Source of the DNA: Candidatus Hodarchaeum mangrovi
Lineage (GTDB): Archaea > Asgardarchaeota > Heimdallarchaeia > Hodarchaeales > Hodarchaeaceae
DNA length: 64,000 nucleotides
Direction of reading: 5' to 3'
NCBI GenBank assembly: GCA_016839515.1
Contig: JAEOUE010000197.1
Location: 1 to 64,000 of the forward strand
Position 1 is the first letter of the stretch; every line of letters begins with the position of its first letter. A model generated the notes under the pieces. It worked only from the letters and a program-made list of their open reading frames with translations, was not told the DNA's origin and did not search any database. Positions 20,271-32,050 of the stretch are shown here, piece by piece. Both the position numbers and the translations under genes were made by a program.

Positions 20271-20376
20271 GCCACCGTGGCTTAGCTAGGTTATAGCGCC
20301 TCCTTGGTATTTGTTCCTAGCTTGGTAATGGCAAACAATCAGGAGGATGTCGCGAGTTCAAATCTCGCCGGTGGCT
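20271..20376 (+). tRNA. tRNA-Thr (anticodon GGT) with a 31-nt intron
   Basis: A full cloverleaf is visible: acceptor GCCACCG/CGGTGGC, D-arm from TGGCTTAGC, anticodon stem CCTCC/GGAGG and T-arm GCGAG-TTCAAAT-CTCGC, with discriminator T and no encoded CCA. The anticodon loop TTGGTA...A gives GGT (Thr). The loop is interrupted between positions 37 and 38 by 31 bases (20310-20340). The junctions form a canonical archaeal bulge-helix-bulge: bulge TAT, 4-bp helix TTGT/ACAA, bulge TCA, each cut after the second bulge base. Confidence 0.93.
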
Positions 20377-20543: not shown

Positions 20544-21167
20544 ATGGATTATATCGATCTTTTAGACCTATGGCGAAAGGAGAGGAAAAGCCATTCGCTT
20601 CAAAAAATCCCCTCTGATTTTTATATTTCCATAGATAGTGAATTAGCTAAGATTTATAGAACTTCCTCTGAGGTACAATGGAGAGAATTAAATGATCTAA
20701 TTATTGAGCGATTCGAATTTTTACGTCAGGATCTTACCAAACTTAGACTTCAAAAAATATTAAATTCGATTATTAATGAATTACCAATAGAGACAGCTTA
20801 TTTAACTTGGGGAGAACAAAAATTAGTGGAGAATTTACAGAAATCGATTAATACATTAAGCATCGAGAAACCAAATTTTTATACTCAGGATATTTCTCTT
20901 AACATGAGTTTACAGGAAGATCCAGACCAAGATACAGATCAAATCGACAAAAATGGCGAGATTAATAATAATACTGTCACATACATAACAGTGAGAATTC
21001 TCGCTGATACTGACCAATTTATTGGTACAGATAATAGGCGGTATGGACCCTTAAAAAAGCATAATGTGGCATACCTACCATTAGAGAATGCAAAAGCATT
21101 AATTGCTAAATCTGTAGCTCGTATTATTGAAAATAACACAAGAACAACTTCAAGTGAAATACAATGA
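20544..21167 (+). CDS. GINS complex subunit, Gins51-like
   Basis: The N-terminal 120 residues form the helical GINS A domain. The C-terminal B domain (FIGTDNRRYGPLKKHNVAYL then LPLENAKALI) matches Gins51 (Sld5/Psf1-type), where the small B domain is C-terminal. GINS joins MCM and a RecJ/Cdc45-like protein in the replicative helicase. It is first in an operon with S27e (4-base ATGA overlap), aIF2alpha, Nop10 and RimI. Confidence 0.85.
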   Translation: MDYIDLLDLWRKERKSHSLQKIPSDFYISIDSELAKIYRTSSEVQWRELNDLIIERFEFLRQDLTKLRLQKILNSIINELPIETAYLTWGEQKLVENLQKSINTLSIEKPNFYTQDISLNMSLQEDPDQDTDQIDKNGEINNNTVTYITVRILADTDQFIGTDNRRYGPLKKHNVAYLPLENAKALIAKSVARIIENNTRTTSSEIQ

Positions 21168-21352
21168 AGAAAAATTACGTCCCTCAACCTCGTAGTCGAT
21201 TCTTTAAAATTCAATGTGAATGTGGAAATGTTCAAGAGATTTTTTCTCATGCAACAACTTCAGTAGATTGCCGTGTATGCGGAAAGAAATTAACACAACC
21301 TCGTAGTGGAAAAGTTGAAATATTTGCAGAAATAATTGAGGTATTAGAGTAG
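21164..21352 (+). CDS. rps27e: 30S ribosomal protein S27e
   Basis: This 62-residue protein has the S27e zinc ribbon (IQCECGNVQEIFSHATTSVD then CRVCGKKL) and a short basic N-terminus. It is preceded by GINS with an ATGA overlap and followed by aIF2alpha, the conserved archaeal S27e-aIF2alpha-Nop10 string. Confidence 0.95.
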   Translation: MKKNYVPQPRSRFFKIQCECGNVQEIFSHATTSVDCRVCGKKLTQPRSGKVEIFAEIIEVLE

Positions 21353-21367
21353 AATAGGCGATATCGA

Positions 21368-22153
21368 ATGGAAGTTAATTTTCCTGCTGTCGATGAGCTT
21401 GTAATCGGAACATGTACTAAATTAACTCCTCATGGAGCTTATTTTGAAATATTTGATTATGAAAAATTAGGTTCAGAGGCAGGTTTTGTCCATATTTCTG
21501 AATTAAGTCGAACTTGGGTAAGAAATATTCGAAGTCACATACGAGAAGGACAAAAAGCAGTAGTTAAGATACTTCGGGTTGATGAAGCAAGGGGAGAGAT
21601 TGATATGTCAATACGAAGAGTCTCAGAACCCCAAAAACGAGCTAAACTGAATGAGTTCAAGCAAGAAAACCGTGCAAGAGGAATCGTCGCTGTAGCCTGT
21701 GAAAAATCCAACATTAAAACTGAAGAGATTGAAAAGCTAATAATGACCGAGTATGGTTCTATTTATGATGGTTTAATCAATGCCCGAGAAGGCAGTGTTG
21801 ACATTTTAACCAAAATAGGGATTCCAAAGGAAGCTGCAGAAGAGATTTACCAACTTGCAGTGAAAGAATTGGAACCACCCAAAGTTGAATTATTTGGGTA
21901 CATAGATATCACCTGTTACGAAGCTGATGGAGCGCTTCATATAAGAAATTTCTTCAAATCTTATGAAAAAAATTTCTCGAAAAAATTTAAAGGATCAAAT
22001 TTCTTAATTCAAATTATTTCTCCACCTGAATATCGCTGTGTAATTGAAAGTAATGATTGGAAATCAGCTGAAACAATTTGGAAAGACCTCCAAGATGGGG
22101 CTACGGAATTCTTTAAACAATATGATGCTGAAGTTTCCTTTAAACGAAAATAA
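21368..22153 (+). CDS. aif2a: Translation initiation factor aIF2 subunit alpha
   Basis: Domains in order: N-terminal S1/OB fold (residues 1-85, GTCTKLTPHGAYFEI ... GFVHISELSRTWVRNIRSHI), a helical domain (about 90-175) and a C-terminal alpha-beta domain that binds aIF2gamma (about 175-261). The SELSR loop corresponds to the region around the regulatory serine of eukaryotic eIF2alpha. A GGCGAT ribosome site precedes the ATG. Operon with S27e and Nop10. Confidence 0.95.
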   Translation: MEVNFPAVDELVIGTCTKLTPHGAYFEIFDYEKLGSEAGFVHISELSRTWVRNIRSHIREGQKAVVKILRVDEARGEIDMSIRRVSEPQKRAKLNEFKQENRARGIVAVACEKSNIKTEEIEKLIMTEYGSIYDGLINAREGSVDILTKIGIPKEAAEEIYQLAVKELEPPKVELFGYIDITCYEADGALHIRNFFKSYEKNFSKKFKGSNFLIQIISPPEYRCVIESNDWKSAETIWKDLQDGATEFFKQYDAEVSFKRK

Positions 22154-22853: not shown

Positions 22854-23177
22854 AATCTGAATAAAGAAATTAATTTATCTCTTCAAAAGAAATCAGATTT
22901 AGTGAAAAGATTAAAGCTCACTACTTATTATTCTAATTATCGATAGTTCTCTAAAATGATATTCTAGAACTTATGGGTTTTTTTTAAGTTTGCTGAATTC
23001 TAAAATCATTATTTTAGTAATAAATCTCTTAGGTTCAATTAGAAGGGACCTAAATATAAAGCTTTAAAAAGAACGAAACGTTACCAAAGGTAAAATAAAC
23101 TTATCAGTAATAAAAACTTTTTAAATTATGCTGATAATTTCTGTTGTTCAATTTAATAAAATATGGTGATCATAAGA
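22854..23177. other. Intergenic region before the ESCRT-II gene
   Basis: No gene or repeat is visible. A T-rich run (about 22978-22986) could terminate the upstream operon. TTTTTAAATTATG (near 23119) is a candidate TATA element for the EAP30 gene, about 55 bases from its likely start. Confidence 0.35.
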
Positions 23178-24164
23178 ATGAAGGATTATCTGTTAAAGGC
23201 TAGTAATGCCTTAACTCAGTTAAATAATACTGTTTCTATTAATGCCCGAAGTATGGCTGACGTAGTTTTAAAGATTTATACTGAGTTCGAAGAATATAGG
23301 TATATTGCTGAAACTATTCCTGATTTTATAATTCGTCCAGATAATACAAAATCAAATCTTAAAGCAAGTGGTGAGATCCGAGTAGCACAGTTATTAACCT
23401 CTATTCTGTGTGATCGAATAACAGAATTGTCTTTAAAGTTATGTGAATCTCTTGAATTCAGAGAGGAAGAAGTTGATGTCAAATTAGAAATCAGGGAGAT
23501 AAAAGATCAAGTATTCCGATTAGGTGAAGTGATCCATGTCCAACAAAAACTAGCTGATGGTGCTCCTGTATCAACAGAGGCGATTCAAGATTTAAGTAAA
23601 CGTTACGAAGCTAGAATAATTCAGCTAGAACAAGAACTCCTTAAAAAAGAGGGACGCGCGTTAACAATTACTGCATTAGATGCCGTTAAAAAGCCTAAAA
23701 TATTTGGTAAAGAGAAATTCAAATCTTCACTAGGAGATCTTATTTTAAGTTTTGGAAAAAATCTTCGTGCTAGCTCTGGGGGGTATATATCTCTTGCAAA
23801 TCTTTATACTGCCCTTAAAGAGCAAGTTCCAGACATTAATTTTTCAACAAAGGATCTAGAAGAAGTTTGTAAGATTCTAGCTAAACAAGACCTAATTTCG
23901 GGTCTTACAAAAAGATCTGGGGTTAAAATAGTAGAATTTATACCTGTTAATTTAGGAGAAGATGCAAAGAAAATATTTTCTTTAGCATCAAAAAAAGGGT
24001 TTGTAACATATGAGGAGGTTATCCTGGGAACAAAATGGGATCAACCACGTGTTGATCGTGTCCTTGAAAGCCTTGTAAATCAGAAAATAGCTCGAAAAGT
24101 ATCTAGTCTTGATTCTGGGGATCAGTATTTCTTCCCTGGATTGTATGGAGAAGATAATTGGTAG
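23178..24164 (+). CDS. ESCRT-II EAP30-domain protein (Vps22/Vps36-like)
   Basis: Residues 1-170 are helical with a coiled coil. From about residue 180 there are two winged helices that align by eye with the EAP30 domain of human SNF8/VPS22: GGYISLANLYTAL matches GGLITLEELH, the SGVKIVEFIPVNLGEDA strand matches the VPAELNMD region, and KKGFVTYEEVILGTKWDQ ... YFFPGLY matches the NGYVTVSEIKASLKWE ... YWLPALF end. ESCRT-II links ubiquitinated cargo to ESCRT-III at membranes. ATG 23178 follows GGTGAT by seven bases and is preferred to 23163. Vps25 and ESCRT-III genes are not in this window. Confidence 0.85.
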   Translation: MKDYLLKASNALTQLNNTVSINARSMADVVLKIYTEFEEYRYIAETIPDFIIRPDNTKSNLKASGEIRVAQLLTSILCDRITELSLKLCESLEFREEEVDVKLEIREIKDQVFRLGEVIHVQQKLADGAPVSTEAIQDLSKRYEARIIQLEQELLKKEGRALTITALDAVKKPKIFGKEKFKSSLGDLILSFGKNLRASSGGYISLANLYTALKEQVPDINFSTKDLEEVCKILAKQDLISGLTKRSGVKIVEFIPVNLGEDAKKIFSLASKKGFVTYEEVILGTKWDQPRVDRVLESLVNQKIARKVSSLDSGDQYFFPGLYGEDNW

Positions 24165-24174
24165 GTAATGAAAA

Positions 24175-25059
24175 ATGACTGAAGTTGATACAGAAAGATT
24201 TGGTGGATTATTTCGTAAAATCGGGGATGCAGTTCATATTGGTACAAAAACGTTCAAAGGAAAGACAATTCTTGGCTCTCAATTTGGATCTGATGCTTTA
24301 ATATGGAGGATAAAATCTGATGATGTAGAAAATTTTCGTAAAATAGACGGATTCATCGTAAAAGATCCAGAAAATGCTATCCTCCTTCAATCAGGGACTC
24401 TCGTAGGCGTTGCTGGAAGCGGAATATATGAACTTGATAAAGATGCAAAAAAACCTGGTAGTGAAATTATCTGGGTTACAAAACGAGAATTTGTTATTAA
24501 ATGGGGTAGTCCTGGAGTTTATACAACTGATAATATTATGGTTGGATGTTTTGGCATCTCTCGTATGAGAGTAGTAAATCCTCGGAATTTTATTATGAAT
24601 ATTGTATCACATAAACAATATTATACTAGTGAAGAATTAAGAAACTGGGTTAAACAGACAATTACCTCTGCAGTTAAACATGTTATGTCACGTTATACCG
24701 TTCCTGAATTATTAAAGGAAAGAAGGACTTTAGCTATTCAAACGAAATCCGAACTAGCTCCTGAGACATCTAGATGGGGTTTAGAACTTGTAGGATTAGA
24801 TATTGGGGGTTTTAAAGTACCAGATGAGTACCAAGCCCTACTTTCATATGAGATTGAAAAACAGGTTTTAGAAACCCAAAAAGAATTGGATGAAGCACGT
24901 AAATCCATGAATGAAGTTTCTGAACTGATAAAGAAGTATGAACATATGATAGAACAAGCTGATGAAATGTTCTTATCAGGAAAATTATCAGAAGAACGAT
25001 ACAAAGAACTAACAGATAAATATTCAAAAAAATTAGCTAAACTAAAGGCTCAATTTTAA
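24175..25059 (+). CDS. SPFH (Band 7) domain protein with C-terminal coiled coil
   Basis: Residues about 25-220 form an SPFH-like domain (VKDPENAILLQSGTLVGVAGSG, then KREFVIKWGSPGVYT and LELVGLDIGGFKVPDEY), resembling the soluble YdjI/virion-core-like SPFH group rather than membrane-anchored stomatins; no membrane span is visible. Residues 225-294 are a charged coiled coil (ETQKELDEARKSMNEV), with a short helical hairpin motif at the end (LSGKLSEERYKELTDKYSKK). It starts 10 bases after the EAP30 stop, so the two are co-transcribed. Oligomeric membrane scaffolding is inferred from the family. Confidence 0.8.
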   Translation: MTEVDTERFGGLFRKIGDAVHIGTKTFKGKTILGSQFGSDALIWRIKSDDVENFRKIDGFIVKDPENAILLQSGTLVGVAGSGIYELDKDAKKPGSEIIWVTKREFVIKWGSPGVYTTDNIMVGCFGISRMRVVNPRNFIMNIVSHKQYYTSEELRNWVKQTITSAVKHVMSRYTVPELLKERRTLAIQTKSELAPETSRWGLELVGLDIGGFKVPDEYQALLSYEIEKQVLETQKELDEARKSMNEVSELIKKYEHMIEQADEMFLSGKLSEERYKELTDKYSKKLAKLKAQF

Positions 25060-25069
25060 TAACCAGCCT

Positions 25070-26836
25070 TTACATTTTCCGAGTTTGGAGGGAACCTCCA
25101 CAATCTGGACATGTAGTTACCCCTACAGCTTTGATTTCCTCATAACAATTAGCACAGATATTATTTCTGCATGATATGCACTGAAATCCAATTGCTGAAT
25201 GATTAGCTAGATTACATATGCTACAATCGAACTTAAAACCAAGCTTTTCAAGAATGATAGAAGTAGATGGAATGTCAATATACCCATTTATCTCTCCATA
25301 AATAATTAAATCCTCAATTTCTCTTATTATATTAGATTCTGAATCTTTAATCTCTCTAAAAATCTCTTGAAGGGGAACTTTCCTTGTTTTTTTATCTTCT
25401 ATTAAAAATTTTAAATTGAAATTCAAACTAGGGGGCGAGTCAATTTTTGAAAATTCATCTAAATACCATCCATTTTTCAGTGGTCCTTTTTTGCAAAAAT
25501 AACACTGCTCAGCACTAACAAGGTTGAAAGAATGTGTATATGTTATTCTACAGTCAGGACAATTCCTAGGAAGGTCTATAATAAATGCAGCGATATTCCC
25601 GCAAAATGGACATTCATGTTTACTATTTAAGGGTCTGCAATCAGAACATACAATCCTTCGGCAATTTTGACACTCATAATAAAGATTTGGATCTGAATAA
25701 GAAGAAGTATCAATTTGACAAAATACTTCAAACTTCTTCACACCTCGAATGAGAAATGGAGAGGAACTTTCACCAGCAATAATACGAAAACCAAGGACTA
25801 AGGATAAATTTATGATTACATTTAATAATAAATCAGTATCTAAATTAAGATTTCGTGCAATTGATTCTACATCTATTCCTCTATCTAGCCAGATTTCTAA
25901 TCGCGGAGAAATATAGACATTCTCTCTAATAATCCCATCTAAACTTTTATTTATTTTATTTAAAAATGAAATAAACTCTAAATATTCAATATTAAAGCGT
26001 TGTAACCAGAATTCAATCGGAATATGACGATAAATATAGATATCAAAGAGTATTTGCGAAACCATATGGCTTATTGAGTATATATGTTGTTGATCAGAAG
26101 AAAAAAGGAAAGGTATTCCTTTACAATTTTCTTTTAACATTTTTTGGCATTTTTCAATATCAATTCTAAATAACCTGCTAAGAGTCTTTAGAGATATTTC
26201 TGGTTCAAGAATAAAGGTAGTATTGAGAAAACGTTCGAAAAACTTGATATCCTTCTCAATTTGGTTTGGAGTCGAAAAATCTAAAAAAGTTAGATTATAT
26301 ATACGATTATTTAATGGATCTATATATCCGTAAAAGGTTCCTTGTTGTGCCATTAAATCTAAAATGGCTTCTAAGTGTTCTTCGGACCAATTGATTTGTT
26401 TTAAAAGAAATTTGAGGTCTATACTTCCTGTTTTTCCTAGTATATTCTGCAGAAAAATCATAGCTCCATTTGGTGTAAAAAAATATCTTCGAATCCGGTC
26501 AAAGAATCCATCATATTTCTGAAGTGATTGAAACATCACAATCTCTAGGATCTCTCCAGGTAAATTGGTTGCATCAATCAAATCACAAATGTCTACATTT
26601 CCTTTTTGGGTTAAATTATGTTCAATTAATTCATTAATGTAAGAAAGCGGAATGTAAAAATCATCATCTGGTGTTAAAATTCCATTCAACACTTTTTCAC
26701 TAATGCTTTTTCTTATAAAGAGAGCGATTTTTTGAAGGTCTTCTGAGCTATCAAAAGATTGAAGAGACACAGGTTCTGTCAGTTTCTGAGCGAAATCTAG
26801 CCATTTATCCTCTTTTTTTCGAAACATATTATTCAT
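25070..26836 (-). CDS. UFL1-like winged-helix protein with C-terminal RING-like zinc modules (candidate E3)
   Basis: The first 340 residues read as a chain of winged-helix units. The segment YIPLSYINELIEHNLTQKGN followed by VDICDLIDATNL resembles the start of UFM1 ligase UFL1 (ITPAQISKEM ... GRVNIVDLQQVINV). Then come zinc modules: CQNCRRIVCSDC plus HECPFC (about 380-410), CPDC ... CYFC (about 420-445), another winged helix, and a final C4C4 RING-like cluster (CSIC, CISC, CANC, CPDC). The gene is convergent with the SPFH gene and near the E1/E2 genes. UFL1 homology is by eye; an E3 role is inference. Start ATG 26836 overlaps a 16-codon ORF. Confidence 0.6.
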   Translation of the reverse strand: MNNMFRKKEDKWLDFAQKLTEPVSLQSFDSSEDLQKIALFIRKSISEKVLNGILTPDDDFYIPLSYINELIEHNLTQKGNVDICDLIDATNLPGEILEIVMFQSLQKYDGFFDRIRRYFFTPNGAMIFLQNILGKTGSIDLKFLLKQINWSEEHLEAILDLMAQQGTFYGYIDPLNNRIYNLTFLDFSTPNQIEKDIKFFERFLNTTFILEPEISLKTLSRLFRIDIEKCQKMLKENCKGIPFLFSSDQQHIYSISHMVSQILFDIYIYRHIPIEFWLQRFNIEYLEFISFLNKINKSLDGIIRENVYISPRLEIWLDRGIDVESIARNLNLDTDLLLNVIINLSLVLGFRIIAGESSSPFLIRGVKKFEVFCQIDTSSYSDPNLYYECQNCRRIVCSDCRPLNSKHECPFCGNIAAFIIDLPRNCPDCRITYTHSFNLVSAEQCYFCKKGPLKNGWYLDEFSKIDSPPSLNFNLKFLIEDKKTRKVPLQEIFREIKDSESNIIREIEDLIIYGEINGYIDIPSTSIILEKLGFKFDCSICNLANHSAIGFQCISCRNNICANCYEEIKAVGVTTCPDCGGSLQTRKM

Positions 26837-27001: not shown

Positions 27002-27322
27002 ATGAGTCATTCAGAATTTAGATGTATAAATTGTGGATATATTCCACATGAGTCTCCTGTATCAGGGAATTGGTATTGTCCCAAATGTGGAAAGCGATCA
27101 ACGATAAAAATTGAACAGCCTCTCCACGTTCGAAGTTATTTACGGCATAAAAGTGTTCATCAACGAAGTAAAGATGAAATATATAATGATATTTATAAAA
27201 AACTTACTCTAGAAGAAAAACAAGAATTGGGTTATAAAGAACCTTATATAAATCCAGTTCTATCTTCAGTAGAACCCAAAAAGAGGGAAACCATTCGTCT
27301 TTTCTTACCCTCTGATAATTAA
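27002..27322 (+). CDS. Small zinc-ribbon protein beside the E1 gene (106 aa)
   Basis: The N-terminal 35 residues form a zinc ribbon (CINCGY ... CPKCGKRS). The remainder is charged and helical (KDEIYNDIYKKLTLEEKQELG) with a short beta-like tail. It is too short for a cross-brace RING (only four cysteines). It converges with the E1 gene (4-base overlap). A role in the ubiquitin-like system is suggested by position only. An AGGTTTTG site precedes ATG 27002. Confidence 0.65.
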   Translation: MSHSEFRCINCGYIPHESPVSGNWYCPKCGKRSTIKIEQPLHVRSYLRHKSVHQRSKDEIYNDIYKKLTLEEKQELGYKEPYINPVLSSVEPKKRETIRLFLPSDN

Positions 27323-28560
27323 TTATTTTTTTTCTCAAATATAACTTTAATTCTTTTGTCTTTTTCACCATATAAGGGTGAAAAAGTTATTCGATCCCCA
27401 TTCGAGAGAATATCCTTTATTATATCTCCCTCATTCAGATGTTTATTTCCTCTAAATGCTAAGAATTCATCTTCATATTTATTATTTACTTCCTGAACAA
27501 TTTCTATGAATCTATTATCTGGATTTACATGGATCATTGATATTTGATCTGAATTTATTCCCCTATTTCCACAAACAAAACAATCGGGATCTGCTAATAG
27601 TTTAAAAGTGGAAAAAGTGCCTGTAAGTCCTGAATAAATAGTTAAAGAAGGAATCTGGAACCTCTCCGATTTTCGTAATCTTCTCAAGATTTTTTGATCT
27701 TTTCTTTTAAGAGAAGACCTTTTTTCAAAAAAAAGTGTGTTAATTATCAATTGAGATTGAATACCACTAATTACTGAATTGACAGTTATTATACTTGGAA
27801 TATGAGTAAGTATGAGTTGTTTTAATTCTTTGATATCATAACTAGGAAATTTGTGATTTTTTGTGCAATTATTTGCAATTTTCTGAAGAAATTTCATATC
27901 TTTATTAGAATTTTCTCTGGGCTCTCGATTATATCTTGTATAAAAGGAATAAAGAGCCTTCCAAGCACAATGTTCACGAATTCTCGGAGTTCCAACCAAT
28001 GTACATGGAGCTGTCCAAATATTTGTTTCATCTGGTGGGGGAGGATTGTCACATGCTAAACAAGATGAAAAATTCTTCTGAATATATTGAACTTGTCCAA
28101 TGTATCCATCAGTAGCAGAATCAATATATGGTTTAGATAATTCAATTGCTAATGAATTAATATATTGACGAGCTAAAAAATTATCGACGCATCCAGCAAT
28201 AATGTCAACTTCTTCAAAAATTTCAGTAGGGATGTCTTGGATTTTAATTGAAAATGCTTCAACATTTACTTGTTTATTGAACATCGTACTAATTCTATCT
28301 TTCGCAACTTCTGCTTTACTCTTTCCAATATCTGTTTCTCGAAAGAGCATTTGACGATTTAGATTTGAATATTCAATTGTATCAACATCAACCAAAATTA
28401 ATTTTCCAACGCCTAGGAGTGACAGATTTTTTATAACCTCACTTCCAGTGCCACCTATGCCCACAACAAGAACTGAACTATTCTGGATTAATTTTTGATC
28501 CCATAAAACTAATCGTTCTTGTCTATCATACCGCAAGTTATATTGATCTTCTTGTGACAT
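27319..28560 (-). CDS. E1-like ubiquitin-activating enzyme
   Basis: The adenylation domain has the nucleotide motif VVGIGGTGS (residues 32-40), VDVDTIEYSNLNRQ and CVDNFLARQYIN. The catalytic-cysteine region PCTLVGTPRIREHC (C186) resembles the CTIASMPRLPEHC motif of eukaryotic UBA3, unlike MoeB/ThiF. Two CxxC pairs (CLAC and CFVC) bind the structural zinc. The last 75 residues (from about ISMIHVNPDN) look like a ubiquitin-fold domain that recruits E2. At 413 residues it resembles a single-chain homodimeric E1. It is last in an operon with the modifier gene and the 28935 gene. Confidence 0.9.
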   Translation of the reverse strand: MSQEDQYNLRYDRQERLVLWDQKLIQNSSVLVVGIGGTGSEVIKNLSLLGVGKLILVDVDTIEYSNLNRQMLFRETDIGKSKAEVAKDRISTMFNKQVNVEAFSIKIQDIPTEIFEEVDIIAGCVDNFLARQYINSLAIELSKPYIDSATDGYIGQVQYIQKNFSSCLACDNPPPPDETNIWTAPCTLVGTPRIREHCAWKALYSFYTRYNREPRENSNKDMKFLQKIANNCTKNHKFPSYDIKELKQLILTHIPSIITVNSVISGIQSQLIINTLFFEKRSSLKRKDQKILRRLRKSERFQIPSLTIYSGLTGTFSTFKLLADPDCFVCGNRGINSDQISMIHVNPDNRFIEIVQEVNNKYEDEFLAFRGNKHLNEGDIIKDILSNGDRITFSPLYGEKDKRIKVIFEKKNN

Positions 28561-28593: not shown

Positions 28594-28914
28594 TTATCCA
28601 CCCTTAATCTGATCAGGGACAATCATAAGCATTGCATTTTCTTCAATGTTGTAACTTGATAAGCTATTTGATGGATTCATGCGTCTACCTTTGTATAATA
28701 GAGCAATTGGCACTACTTCAGGAATATTGAACGCATCACGAGCTGCTCCAATAGCTTGAAAAACGCTCCCATTCATATTGATATATTTTTCACGAACGTT
28801 TTGATCTGGAGGGAGCTGAGGATCTTTAAAACGTACTTTCACCATTTTTTCTATACTTGAATCGGAGGGACTTTTTCTGACTGAATTATCCCATATAACA
28901 TCTTTTTTAGACAA
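28594..28914 (-). CDS. Ubiquitin/UFM1-like modifier with terminal Gly-Gly
   Basis: A beta-grasp domain (about residue 25 to the end) follows a polar 23-residue extension. The region LYKGRRMNPSNSLSSYNI aligns with ubiquitin's IFAGKQLEDGRTLSDYNI, while KVRFK, FNIP, MNPS and MIVPDQIKGG also recall UFM1 (KVSFK, FKVP, INPA, RIIPRDRVG). The protein ends exactly in GG, so it needs no C-terminal processing. The ORF-track start (GTG 28923) lies inside a perfect GGTGAT ribosome site; TTG 28914 four bases later is the likely start (106 aa). The E1 gene follows 33 bases downstream. Confidence 0.85.
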   Translation of the reverse strand: MSKKDVIWDNSVRKSPSDSSIEKMVKVRFKDPQLPPDQNVREKYINMNGSVFQAIGAARDAFNIPEVVPIALLYKGRRMNPSNSLSSYNIEENAMLMIVPDQIKGG

Positions 28915-28934
28915 TATTATCACCTTTTATTAAA

Positions 28935-29735
28935 TTAGACATATAGTAAACGTTCAATTTCGGATAGAGTTGTTAAAAGATCAATTCTACCTTTTGCATA
29001 ATCCTCTAAAGGACCTTTAATGAGCGGATATGTGTTTAGTAGTTCACTTTCGAGCCCTATCGGATAGTTCTTTTTTCTTTTGATAATTAAATTAATGATT
29101 TCCCCATCTTGTGCATAGAATTTTACAATAATATCTTTTGTACTAACCGTTGAATCATAGTTTGTAAGGATTTTTTTGATAAGTGGGTCTTTTTCATATT
29201 CAACTGTTGAAAATTCAGGTTTTTTTATGCTTACATCAACCTCCCCTAAGGCTTTTGGAATTTTATCCTCCGCAAGCTTGTAGATTTCTTCTAATACGTT
29301 GAGAATGCTTGAAGAATTAGGAGTCCAAGATTTCATCGACGGTAAATCGTTGAGTTCACAATCTAGAATTTCTCGAAGTTGACTGGGTCCATCGATATAT
29401 GGACGAGCAGGCAGATCATCTAAAACTACGAGCAATGGAAATGCATAGGCCCCTACTTGCATTTTGATTCTGATTTTTCCAATCTCATCCCCAATATATT
29501 CACCAGGAAAGTTTTCTAATACTTTTTGCCCTTCTTGGTAAATCAAATAGTAAGATTCAGCTTTTAATTCATCATCGACAATCGATTCATTTTCAGCTGT
29601 GAAAGAGGACCGTTTTATGTAATTTGTAAGATCACAATAATCACACTTCACAGGAAATTGAAAAATGGGTTTTTGAGAGAGAGGAGCACCACAACCATTA
29701 CACTGCGCAATATTACTCTGAATTTCGAAATCCAT
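28935..29735 (-). CDS. Zinc-ribbon protein with E2-like (RWD/UEV) fold candidates, in the modifier operon
   Basis: The N-terminus is a zinc ribbon (CNGCGAPL ... CDYCDLTNYI). Residues about 60-160 show an order resembling an RWD/UEV/E2 fold without a catalytic cysteine: beta strands (KIRIKMQVGAYAFPLLVV), a proline-rich loop (LPARPYIDGP), a W-containing loop and a long helix (SSSILNVLEEIYKLAEDKI). Residues 165-266 may repeat it (DIIVKFYAQDGEIINLIIKR, NYPIGLE, helical end). It is first in the operon, 20 bases before the modifier. It could be an E2 variant or a modifier-binding adaptor; the fold assignment is by eye and uncertain. Confidence 0.5.
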   Translation of the reverse strand: MDFEIQSNIAQCNGCGAPLSQKPIFQFPVKCDYCDLTNYIKRSSFTAENESIVDDELKAESYYLIYQEGQKVLENFPGEYIGDEIGKIRIKMQVGAYAFPLLVVLDDLPARPYIDGPSQLREILDCELNDLPSMKSWTPNSSSILNVLEEIYKLAEDKIPKALGEVDVSIKKPEFSTVEYEKDPLIKKILTNYDSTVSTKDIIVKFYAQDGEIINLIIKRKKNYPIGLESELLNTYPLIKGPLEDYAKGRIDLLTTLSEIERLLYV

Positions 29736-29983: not shown

Positions 29984-30583
29984 ATGAGTGTTTTAAGAGA
30001 TCCATTATATCGAACTCTAAGTTATTACCGAAGTGAGATAGCTATGCAAGACCTGCATTCAAGAAGGTTAAGAGAAGAATTTAAGAGAATGTTAAAGATA
30101 TTTCCACCAAAATCCAGTCATATTAAATGGAAAATAATCGATAATGACCTTCATCATTATCGTGCGACTATTTTTGGTAAAACTGGGACACCATTTGAAG
30201 GTGGAAAATGGGATATTACAGTAGATTTACCACCCGAGTATCCGTTCAAACCTCCCATTGTTAACTTTATAACACCTATCTGGCATCCGAATATTGCTGT
30301 TGGAAAAACAAAATGGACTTGGGGATCTAATGTATGTTTAAGCTTGGTGAATTGGAATAATTTGGGGAAACCAGGCGGCTGGAAAGAAACGATTACTTTA
30401 CCCAGTGTATTTGAACATATTGAAATGATGTTGGATATATATGAAAGTGTTGATAATGCTGACTTTCCTGAGTATCTTGTTGATCCAGAGGATCCATTTA
30501 ATCCAGAAGCAGGAAAAGAGATGAAAGAAAACTTTCGGGCTTACTGGGAAAAAGCTTCCGATTGGACAAAGAAGCATAGCTGA
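29984..30583 (+). CDS. E2-like ubiquitin-conjugating enzyme (UBC fold)
   Basis: The UBC core is clear: YPFKPPIVNFITPIWHPNI (residues 86-104, with the HPN motif at 101-103), the catalytic cysteine in NVCLSLVNW (C118), and the C-terminal helices DPFNPEAGKEM ... FRAYWEKASDW, all standard for eukaryotic-type E2s. A 14-residue insertion before the active-site cysteine (AVGKTKWTWGS) is longer than in typical UBCs. It should take the modifier from the E1 at 27319. First gene of the plus-strand operon, with the JAMM gene 16 bases later. Confidence 0.92.
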   Translation: MSVLRDPLYRTLSYYRSEIAMQDLHSRRLREEFKRMLKIFPPKSSHIKWKIIDNDLHHYRATIFGKTGTPFEGGKWDITVDLPPEYPFKPPIVNFITPIWHPNIAVGKTKWTWGSNVCLSLVNWNNLGKPGGWKETITLPSVFEHIEMMLDIYESVDNADFPEYLVDPEDPFNPEAGKEMKENFRAYWEKASDWTKKHS

Positions 30584-30599: not shown

Positions 30600-31178
30600 A
30601 TGCCTTTAGAATCTAGCAACGAAAAAAATAATCAAAAAAATCATCTAAATGAGGTTAAGAAACCTTCATCAAAGAACAAAGACAAGAAAAAGATTGTTAA
30701 ATTAGATATTAAAGTAAAATCGGTTTCGATCTACTGGAAACACATTCAGAAGATGACCGATTTTTCCGTACGATCTATACCTAACGAAGCTATCGGTCTT
30801 CTCGGAGGGAGAGAAATTAGGAAAGGTGAACTTTTGGTAGAAAAAGTAATTCATATATCCACTGGCGACGAAGTCTCAGTATCTTTTTCAGATGATGATT
30901 TCAAGTCTTTTGAGGATCTTCTTAATGAAAATAATCATTGCATTGGATGGTGGCATTCTCATCCAGGATATGGATTGTTTCTTTCTCCAACTGATTTAAC
31001 AACTCATATTTATTCCTTTCAAGTTCATAATCCACTATCTGTGGCACTAGTTTTAGATCCAACAAGAATTAATAATCAATGTGCTGATTTTACATGTTAT
31101 CAAGTAAAAGGAGAAAATGGGATTTCACCCTTTATTTATAACGAAATAGCTAGCTATATCATAAAATCAAAAGACTAA
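30600..31178 (+). CDS. JAMM/MPN+ metalloprotease (Rpn11/CSN5-like deubiquitinase)
   Basis: The JAMM zinc site is intact: catalytic Glu63 (NEAIGLLGG) and H119-x-H121-P-x6-S129-x2-D132 in HSHPGYGLFLSPTD. This is the eukaryotic Rpn11/CSN5/AMSH pattern, predicted to cleave isopeptide bonds to the modifier. A lysine-rich N-terminal extension of about 40 residues (KKPSSKNKDKKK) is unusual and may bind nucleic acid or membrane. As the modifier already ends in GG, deconjugation rather than maturation is the expected role. Follows the E2 gene in the same operon. Confidence 0.92.
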   Translation: MPLESSNEKNNQKNHLNEVKKPSSKNKDKKKIVKLDIKVKSVSIYWKHIQKMTDFSVRSIPNEAIGLLGGREIRKGELLVEKVIHISTGDEVSVSFSDDDFKSFEDLLNENNHCIGWWHSHPGYGLFLSPTDLTTHIYSFQVHNPLSVALVLDPTRINNQCADFTCYQVKGENGISPFIYNEIASYIIKSKD

Positions 31179-31237: not shown

Positions 31238-32050
31238 ATGGTGTCCACATCATTATCTTTTAGTTTTTATAAGCGTATTAGTGGTCAAATAGCTCATTTT
31301 TTCCTTCAAAGCGGTTCAGCAACTGATTATACAATAATTGACTATTTTTTTGTTTTTTTAGGTCCAGCTGCAGTACTTTTCTTTACGTTCTACCTTTGGT
31401 GGTCAGGAAAAAGGAAGAATCGCAAGATTATGAGGATAACACAGGAGTCTTTAATCCAAGTATTCTCAAAAGAGTTCGAAGATCTCATTATGGAGCAGAT
31501 GAGTTCAAATGGGGGCCTTTTATTTCCTAAATACAAAAAATCTACTGTAATTCCCTTTAAGGACTTTCGTGTTGTATTTGCTCTCGAAGAACGTCATTTA
31601 ATGCTATCTGTTATTATTTCTTGGTTTTCAGGAGCTAAAGATTATATTGCATTAGAAGCTAATCCTAAACGTGGAAAAACATCAACCAAAATTCAAATAA
31701 TTCCTAAGAAAGAAGAAGGACAAATTAAGAAACACCAAGATTTGCTATTTACTCTCGATGAAATAGAATTAGGGGTGAGACAGCTTGATGAGACATATAT
31801 TTGGAAAGCATCATCAAGCCGATCAGGATTGTATTTTCTTTCAGATAAAACTCTCCTGAAAAATATACATAAATTGCGAAACAATCTTGTTCGAATTTCT
31901 ATAGATTCCTCAGATGATCCTTCTATTCGAATATACGTCAAGATAAATAAGGATTTAGACCTTGAACAGTTATACATAACATTTATGGCTTTGTGTGAGA
32001 GGGTTGACCAAGTATTTGATAAAACTGTAATGAAAAAAACTCGAAATTAG
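31238..32050 (+). CDS. Single-span membrane protein of unknown function in the ubiquitin operon
   Basis: A short N-terminal region is followed by one hydrophobic span (YFFVFLGPAAVLFFTFYLWW, about residues 32-51) and a basic stop-transfer segment (SGKRKNRK), placing about 215 residues in the cytosol. The soluble part is alpha/beta, with a short hydrophobic patch (LMLSVIISWF). No family is recognised. It follows the JAMM gene by 59 bases and converges with the Arf-like genes, so it might anchor conjugation or GTPase partners at the membrane. Confidence 0.65.
   Translation: MVSTSLSFSFYKRISGQIAHFFLQSGSATDYTIIDYFFVFLGPAAVLFFTFYLWWSGKRKNRKIMRITQESLIQVFSKEFEDLIMEQMSSNGGLLFPKYKKSTVIPFKDFRVVFALEERHLMLSVIISWFSGAKDYIALEANPKRGKTSTKIQIIPKKEEGQIKKHQDLLFTLDEIELGVRQLDETYIWKASSSRSGLYFLSDKTLLKNIHKLRNNLVRISIDSSDDPSIRIYVKINKDLDLEQLYITFMALCERVDQVFDKTVMKKTRN

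Follow-up and report, generated by a model that had tools for sequence, protein, structure and literature searches.

A 64,000-nucleotide stretch of Candidatus Hodarchaeum mangrovi DNA (positions 1 to 64,000 of contig JAEOUE010000197.1; "the window") carries a gene for an EAP30-like protein directly before a gene for an SPFH protein, with ubiquitin-like conjugation genes alongside. The question raised by this arrangement is what the pair does, and whether it belongs to the ESCRT machinery of the cell or to the neighbouring conjugation genes.

The EAP30-SPFH locus

Three open reading frames were verified, at 23163-24164 (+), 24175-25059 (+) and 25070-26836 (-); position 23178, where the original prediction began, falls on an ATG inside the first. 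This frame encodes a 333-residue protein with an N-terminal helical region and C-terminal tandem winged helices, and its assignment to the EAP30 (Vps22/Vps36) family is secure (Pfam EAP30 7.5e-9; 36.1 bits against a cut-off of 26.8, residues 173-307). A full-length AF2 model of low overall confidence (pLDDT 62) places helices up to about residue 204 and two winged helices at 183-325. The second gene follows after the predicted gap of 10 bases (TAG 24162-24164; ATG 24175), and its 294-residue product contains a clear SPFH domain (Pfam Band_7 1e-17; 65.2 bits against a cut-off of 23.6) and a C-terminal helical tail. No transmembrane stretch was found in this protein, the highest mean hydrophobicity of any 18-residue stretch being 0.57. 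Amphipathic stretches occupy residues 11-29 and 238-259, and that at the N-terminus is only suggestive of oligomerisation on a membrane. The SPFH family is too divergent for a pattern scan of named genomes.

The third gene is convergent with the pair as predicted, and its description as UFL1-like is only borderline. The 588-residue PCI/winged-helix product, cysteine-rich in its C-terminal part, has a PCI domain above cut-off (8.8e-6), while its match to the UFL1 family is sub-threshold (E3_UFM1_ligase, PF09743, 0.0023; 18.1 bits against 23.2 in hmmscan). The G043 orthologue exceeds the PF09743 cut-off solely by summation over adjacent matches (25 bits). Judged by sequence, the protein is a weakly UFL1-like candidate E3 or scaffold. 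Its gene keeps its place next to the pair throughout the genus; in another family (G053) it is co-directional with the pair.

Linkage across Asgard archaea

Among 228 Asgard genomes, the SPFH clade of the window gene is represented at 44 loci, spread over 39 genomes from 11 families. An EAP30-like gene adjoins the SPFH gene on the same strand in 41 of the 44, the upstream gene of several distant loci being recognised by iterated profile and position rather than by Pfam EAP30; the three loci without it are G157, G077 and G155:C160. Wherever the spacing was measured (34/34 loci), the EAP30-like gene lies upstream on the same strand with a gap of -7 to 80 nt. Given the proportion of paired loci and this consistent spacing, the adjacency is far beyond chance. 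By comparison, 19 ordinary stomatin-type SPFH loci had no convincing EAP30 partner, one of them having a weak match (1.6e-4) beside it. L242, a copy inspected at a later stage, shows the same arrangement, its two genes lying 3 nt apart. The neighbourhood comparison proposed with the original prediction therefore finds the linkage kept in related genomes. The two genes probably form a conserved operon in Asgard archaea and are presumably co-transcribed.

A paralogue of Vps22

The original prediction took the EAP30 gene for the ESCRT-II gene of the cell. This identity is rejected because the same genome encodes a canonical Vps22 (244 aa; EAP30 4.5e-22) on contig C153, in the company of Vps4, two ESCRT-III-like genes, UEV, Vps28, E1 and ubiquitin, and because 19 canonical Vps22 proteins form one clade in the tree (support 98/95) with the window protein outside. 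The latter is a separate paralogous lineage. Like Asgard and eukaryotic ESCRT-II Vps22 (EAP30/SNF8), it has the tandem winged-helix EAP30 fold; unlike them, it has a longer N-terminal helical region and is encoded nearly always next to an SPFH gene, not next to Vps4 and ESCRT-III. What stands of the proposed coupling between a scaffold and ESCRT-II is thus the EAP30-SPFH pair beside conjugation genes, conserved in ten Asgard families. The AU test rejected a tree that unites all linked EAP30 proteins in a single clade (p 1.6e-9), several branches being very long. As the unlinked L174 and L059 sequences fall among the linked ones in the tree, the linked proteins may have one or several origins.

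Kinship with ESCRT-II is nevertheless evident. All five Foldseek matches of the window protein to the PDB with E<0.001 are ESCRT-II Vps22/Vps36 (best 5.1e-7), and the protein matches the genome's own canonical Vps22 at 3.5e-23. Further, non-Asgard archaeal ESCRT loci contain SPFH genes, and Bacillus YdjI targets PspA (PMC10936438). These observations favour an account near the original prediction, wherein the SPFH-held paralogue would serve as a second kind of ESCRT-II stalk, recognising modified cargo and bringing in Vps25 and ESCRT-III from genes at other loci. However, a search for ESCRT-III, Vps4, Vps28 and UEV genes adjoining the pair found none, the genome has its separate canonical Vps22, and the paralogue lies outside the canonical clade, all of which make this account unlikely. 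Cargo might conceivably be sorted at SPFH-marked membrane sites, as originally envisaged.

Two conjugation cassettes beside the pair

The recurrent neighbours of the pair are ubiquitin-like conjugation cassettes, never ESCRT-III or Vps4, and two different cassettes recur next to it in at least four families. The cassette of the window genus is of the ubiquitin type, with an E1, a ubiquitin ending GG, an E2, a JAMM protease and the PCI/UFL1-like protein. As in the canonical Asgard ubiquitin-ESCRT cluster (PMC9192718), an EAP30 protein and E1, E2-like and ubiquitin genes occur in one genome; unlike there, the window cassette is a second one, separate from the canonical cluster, which lies on C153. 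Next to the PCI gene is a small Zn-ribbon protein (27002..27322, +), in the same place in same-genus loci L122-L125 and with a similar 99-aa protein in L092. An E1-like activating enzyme of the ThiF fold and UBA1/SAE2 type follows (27319..28560, -; ThiF 9.4e-53), and then a ubiquitin-like modifier (28594..28923, -) whose matches to Rad60-SLD (4.2e-5) and ubiquitin (1.6e-4) both fall slightly under cut-off and whose C-terminus, VPDQIKGG, is common to the same-genus orthologues read. A second Zn-ribbon protein (28935..29735, -), with the conserved motif CxGCGAPL...C.YCDL, again keeps its place in L122-L125. The E2 ubiquitin-conjugating enzyme (29984..30583, +; UQ_con 4.7e-24) precedes the JAB/JAMM metalloprotease (30600..31178, +; Prok-JAB 4.5e-10, JAB 2.8e-8), whose orthologues carry the motif HSHPGxGLFLSxTD. 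The conserved protein adjoining it (31238..32050, +) has a sub-threshold CCDC47 match (9e-4), which was treated as chance and dropped because orthologues do not reproduce it. A UFM1-type reading of this cassette was likewise rejected, because its E1 is UBA1-like (best PDB match UBA1, 1.3e-37; UBA5 just 1e-17) and a UFC1-like E2 gave no match in 12 of 12 genomes of the genus.

The second cassette is that of Lokiarchaeota and other Heimdallarchaeota, where the pair adjoins a UBA5-like E1, a UFC1-like E2, a UFM1-fold modifier, a JAMM protease and a Zn protein. Pair and UFM1-type cassette lie within about 12 kb of each other at 14 loci in 13 genomes. The SPFH clade is present in 14 of 18 genomes with a UFC1-like gene against 26 of 210 others (Fisher p 5.6e-9, uncorrected for phylogeny), and four genomes have a strong UFC1-like gene but no SPFH clade. 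The E1 resembles UBA5 (4.7e-49) more than MoeB (2.8e-24) and conserves the UBA5-like active-site motif CxASLPxTM, CVASLPSTM aligning with CAASLPTTM. For the E2, which has an invariant cysteine in MICHEH, nearly all top PDB matches are UFC1; the G070 protein scores 39.4 bits against the Pfam UFC1 cut-off of 25, and the Loki members, at 22.6-24 bits, are slightly under it. The modifier shows weak similarity by sequence alone, and a PDB sequence search with the family found nothing, so that only the fold search is informative: the top five matches of its model are all UFM1 (TM 0.85-0.90, rmsd 1.4-2.4). Every modifier in the alignment ends in VG, with a single glycine.

In its UBA5-, UFC1- and UFM1-like genes, with the fold and active cysteines expected of them and the VG C-terminus, this cassette is like eukaryotic UFMylation (UFM1, UBA5, UFC1, UFL1-DDRGK1, UFSP). 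It differs in its linkage to EAP30 and SPFH genes, in the fusion of modifier and E2 in several genomes, and in its protease, which is a JAB/JAMM enzyme, no UFSP cysteine protease being present in linkage with the cassette; the window itself carries a cassette of the ubiquitin type.

The searches made recognised no RING E3 in the cassettes. This would suit a scheme in which the EAP30 paralogue, by itself or together with the PCI/UFL1-like protein, acts as an E3 scaffold that brings charged E2 to membrane clients, the SPFH anchor replacing a transmembrane segment. The adjacency of the PCI/UFL1-like gene to the pair in two families points the same way, as does a UFL1-DDRGK1 chimera among the fold matches that follow ESCRT-II. 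However, that fold match is not significant (E 0.027), and most Loki-family genomes, cassette present or not, have a gene for a UFL1 of ~790 aa at another locus. The scheme is thus improbable, to much the same degree as the ESCRT-II stalk.

Role of the pair

Set upon the observed linkage, paralogy, cassettes and family assignments, the pair is best read as a membrane-docking and adaptor module, an operon serving ubiquitin-like conjugation at the membrane, with a probability of roughly 0.58. Physical interaction of the two proteins, membrane binding and the direction of function are parts of the mechanism that we infer. The SPFH protein would probably oligomerise on the membrane, and the EAP30 paralogue would probably dock on it via its N-terminal helices. 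The winged helices would then probably be presented to a modified client or to conjugation enzymes. Such a presenting role is played by the winged-helix proteins of ESCRT-II and of the UFL1-DDRGK1 ligase.

The pairs of families f16, f17, f18 and f26 have no conjugation cassette nearby, which leaves room for a broader function. Together with the bacterial SPFH-PspA coupling (PMC8581546, as conveyed by PMC10936438), these pairs are what speaks for an envelope-stress module that maintains the membrane like PspA-YdjI beside merely incidental conjugation genes, a reading made the least likely of all by the recurrence of two different cassettes in at least four families and by the lack of any matched ESCRT-III gene next to the pair. 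The pair resembles Bacillus YdjI-PspA and the archaeal Meth_adaptin ESCRT loci (PMC10936438, PMC8581546) in the genetic coupling of SPFH to an ESCRT-related protein. Unlike in the loci as described there, the Asgard partner is of the EAP30/Vps22 type, not the ESCRT-III type, and the context is ubiquitin-like conjugation.

Implications for the origin of UFMylation

Collectively, a hunch from a single genome has become a linkage that spans the phylum and lends itself to tests with purified proteins. Further, an archaeal cassette with UFM1-, UBA5- and UFC1-like members contradicts the statement of a 2023 survey that UFM1 and UFC1 are restricted to eukaryotes (PMC10183829), although earlier reports may exist. 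A tentative proposal, for which the odds are somewhat short of even, is that an ancestral Asgard UFMylation system (UFM1, UBA5, UFC1, JAMM) was clustered in operon-like fashion with EAP30-SPFH. Eukaryotes would have inherited the modifier, E1 and E2, and the pair would represent a prokaryotic membrane platform preceding the ER-anchored UFL1-DDRGK1 ligase. Given the archaeal cassette, the origin of UFMylation would shift to before eukaryotes. As a UFM1-like system published as eukaryote-only is found in Asgard lineages, the origin of the pathway may be testable in archaea.

Conservation of the EAP30–SPFH gene pair

The three genes under study lie where the original prediction placed them: an EAP30-domain gene at 23163-24164 on the forward strand (Pfam, 7.5e-9), an SPFH/Band_7 gene 10 bases downstream at 24175-25059 (forward strand; Pfam, 1e-17), and a third gene on the reverse strand at 25070-26836. 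The third gene encodes a PCI domain (Pfam, 8.8e-6), and its proposed UFL1-like identity rests on a sub-threshold match (0.0023). The draft genome totals 4.0 Mb, and the window is part of its contig C138. Upstream, at 20544-22153, a 62-aa ORF separates a Gins51-like gene from an eIF2-alpha gene, and genes of like size and order precede the pair at same-genus loci. A tRNA gene at 20271-20376 is longer than usual (106 nt) and likely contains an intron.

A profile search of 228 Asgard genomes defined an SPFH clade of 44 loci in 39 genomes, separated from ordinary stomatin-like SPFH genes by an E-value gap (5.6e-35 to 3.9e-27). An EAP30-like gene is adjacent and on the same strand at 41 of the 44 loci, so that the linkage expected in relatives is indeed present there; the pair occurs in ten families. 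The EAP30 gene lies upstream with gaps of -7 to 80 nt at the 34 loci measured, adjacency at the remainder being taken from gene coordinates. The order is reversed at one locus (G082:C3), and an adjacent EAP30-like gene is lacking in genomes G157 and G077 and beside a G155 copy near a contig edge. Among 19 control loci with ordinary SPFH genes, no convincing EAP30 neighbour was found (one weak match, 1.6e-4, in L236). A second SPFH copy in G083, checked only later, shows the pair too, its two genes spaced 3 nt apart.

The upstream genes were gathered with an iterated profile, so some distant ones are recognised mainly by profile. EAP30 scores above the Pfam cut-off at loci L110 and L115 and below it at L106, L131, L117 and L094, while Pfam returns generic winged helices or nothing at L095, L096, L102 and L108. 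These last four may be assigned to the same family by profile and position, not as Pfam EAP30. At L110 and L111 (genomes G177 and G178), the 523-aa SPFH protein carries N-terminal Cys-rich, Zn-ribbon-like stretches, recalling Zn-ribbon SPFH proteins reported from other archaeal ESCRT loci. The part of Makarova et al. 2024 (PMC10936438) consulted here places SPFH genes within ESCRT loci of archaea outside the Asgard group, mentions YdjI-PspA, and describes no Asgard EAP30–SPFH pair.

A paralogue distinct from canonical Vps22

The view that the window's EAP30 protein serves as the cell's ESCRT-II did not survive. A separate canonical Vps22 (EAP30, 4.5e-22) is encoded on contig C153, in a ubiquitin–ESCRT cluster apart from the window (G000:C153:5000-24000, L176) comprising Vps4 with an MIT domain, two ESCRT-III-like genes (named by size, sequence and position, without a Pfam scan), Vps22, UEV, Vps28, E1 and ubiquitin. 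In the tree, 19 canonical Vps22 proteins form one clade (support 98/95) that excludes every SPFH-linked sequence; an AU test argues against a single clade for all SPFH-linked sequences (p 1.6e-9). The window protein is a paralogue. In its predicted structure, helices extend to roughly residue 204 and a pair of winged helices spans 183-325; these winged helices score mostly 70-90 in confidence, the rest of the model low, and the only PDB fold matches with E < 0.001 are ESCRT-II Vps22/Vps36. No match to canonical ESCRT-I, ESCRT-III or Vps4 proteins was found beside the pair. Near pairs of family f18 there are large AAA proteins, whose two AAA modules mark them as Cdc48-like.

Two conjugation cassettes

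The genes that follow the pair in the window genus encode the PCI/UFL1-like protein, a small Zn-ribbon protein, E1 (best PDB match UBA1, 1.3e-37), a ubiquitin-like protein with a C-terminal GG, a Zn protein, E2 (Pfam UQ_con, 4.7e-24) and a JAMM protease, which bears out the predicted placement beside conjugation machinery. In Lokiarchaeota and other Heimdallarchaeota the neighbours are a 360-aa Zn protein, E1, a JAMM protease, an 88-aa modifier and a 180-aa E2. This second cassette, which is UFM1-like, accompanies the pair, whole or partial, at 14 loci in 13 genomes; the single-contig genome G008 carries both together.

The second-cassette E1 matches UBA5 at 4.7e-49 versus MoeB at 2.8e-24 and keeps the UBA5 active-site stretch (VCAASLPTTM; PCVASLPSTM). 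PDB matches of the E2 are almost exclusively UFC1. The G070 E2 scores 39.4 bits against a Pfam UFC1 cut-off of 25 and aligns with human UFC1 nearly end to end through the catalytic region, Loki members fall just under the cut-off, and the family profile matches human UFC1 (sequence confirmed against PDB) at E 9.1e-5. Nothing in PDB matches the modifier by sequence, and its profile matches human UFM1 only weakly (0.0034); the five best PDB fold matches of its model (pLDDT 85.5) are all UFM1 (TM 0.85-0.90), and every family member ends in VG. Modifier and E2 are fused in G108, G155, G095, G006 and G070, so release of the VG terminus would require proteolysis, for which the JAMM protease is the candidate. 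A 362-aa ORF in G053 (L175:1-1086) looks like a UFM1-type modifier–E2 fusion that has lost the E2 cysteine; its neighbour resembles a radical-SAM enzyme.

Of the 228 genomes, 20 have a UFC1-like gene (18 without the two weakest matches); they come from several families, but the window genus, with 12 genomes, is not represented. The SPFH clade is present in 14 of the 18 UFC1-like genomes versus 26 of 210 others (Fisher p 5.6e-9, uncorrected for relatedness). Most Loki-family members encode a UFL1 of about 790 aa, whether or not they have the cassette. Among named GTDB genomes, UFC1-like E2s appear only in Lokiarchaeota and Heimdallarchaeota records and on two short Patescibacteria-binned contigs; the latter (L189 and L192, MAG AMOR_Bin_1762) carry fragments with 79-86% identity to Loki ones and are likely misbinned. 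UFL1 and DDRGK1 have been traced to Asgard archaea, with UFM1, C53, UFC1 and UFSP2 seen only in eukaryotes (Picchianti et al. 2023, PMC10183829). Our literature search, which covered few subscription journals and not bioRxiv, found no report of an archaeal UFM1.

Possible role of the pair

The best-supported reading, which beyond linkage and homology we infer, is that the pair forms a membrane module for ubiquitin-like conjugation: the SPFH protein would provide an oligomeric base on the membrane, and the EAP30 paralogue would act there as adaptor. That the pair is linked with two unlike cassettes argues that its role belongs with conjugation and not with any one modifier. Some families have the pair without a nearby cassette, and this leaves room for a general membrane role. 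An ESCRT route, towards which the fold matches point, is less likely for a pair with no canonical ESCRT neighbours; about as likely as that is an E3-scaffold route, in which the EAP30 paralogue, alone or with the adjoining UFL1-like candidate, would be the E3. Hatano et al. 2022 (PMC9192718), who describe the canonical cluster, state that each Asgard genome has one Vps22/Vps36-like gene; the EAP30 paralogue adds to that statement.
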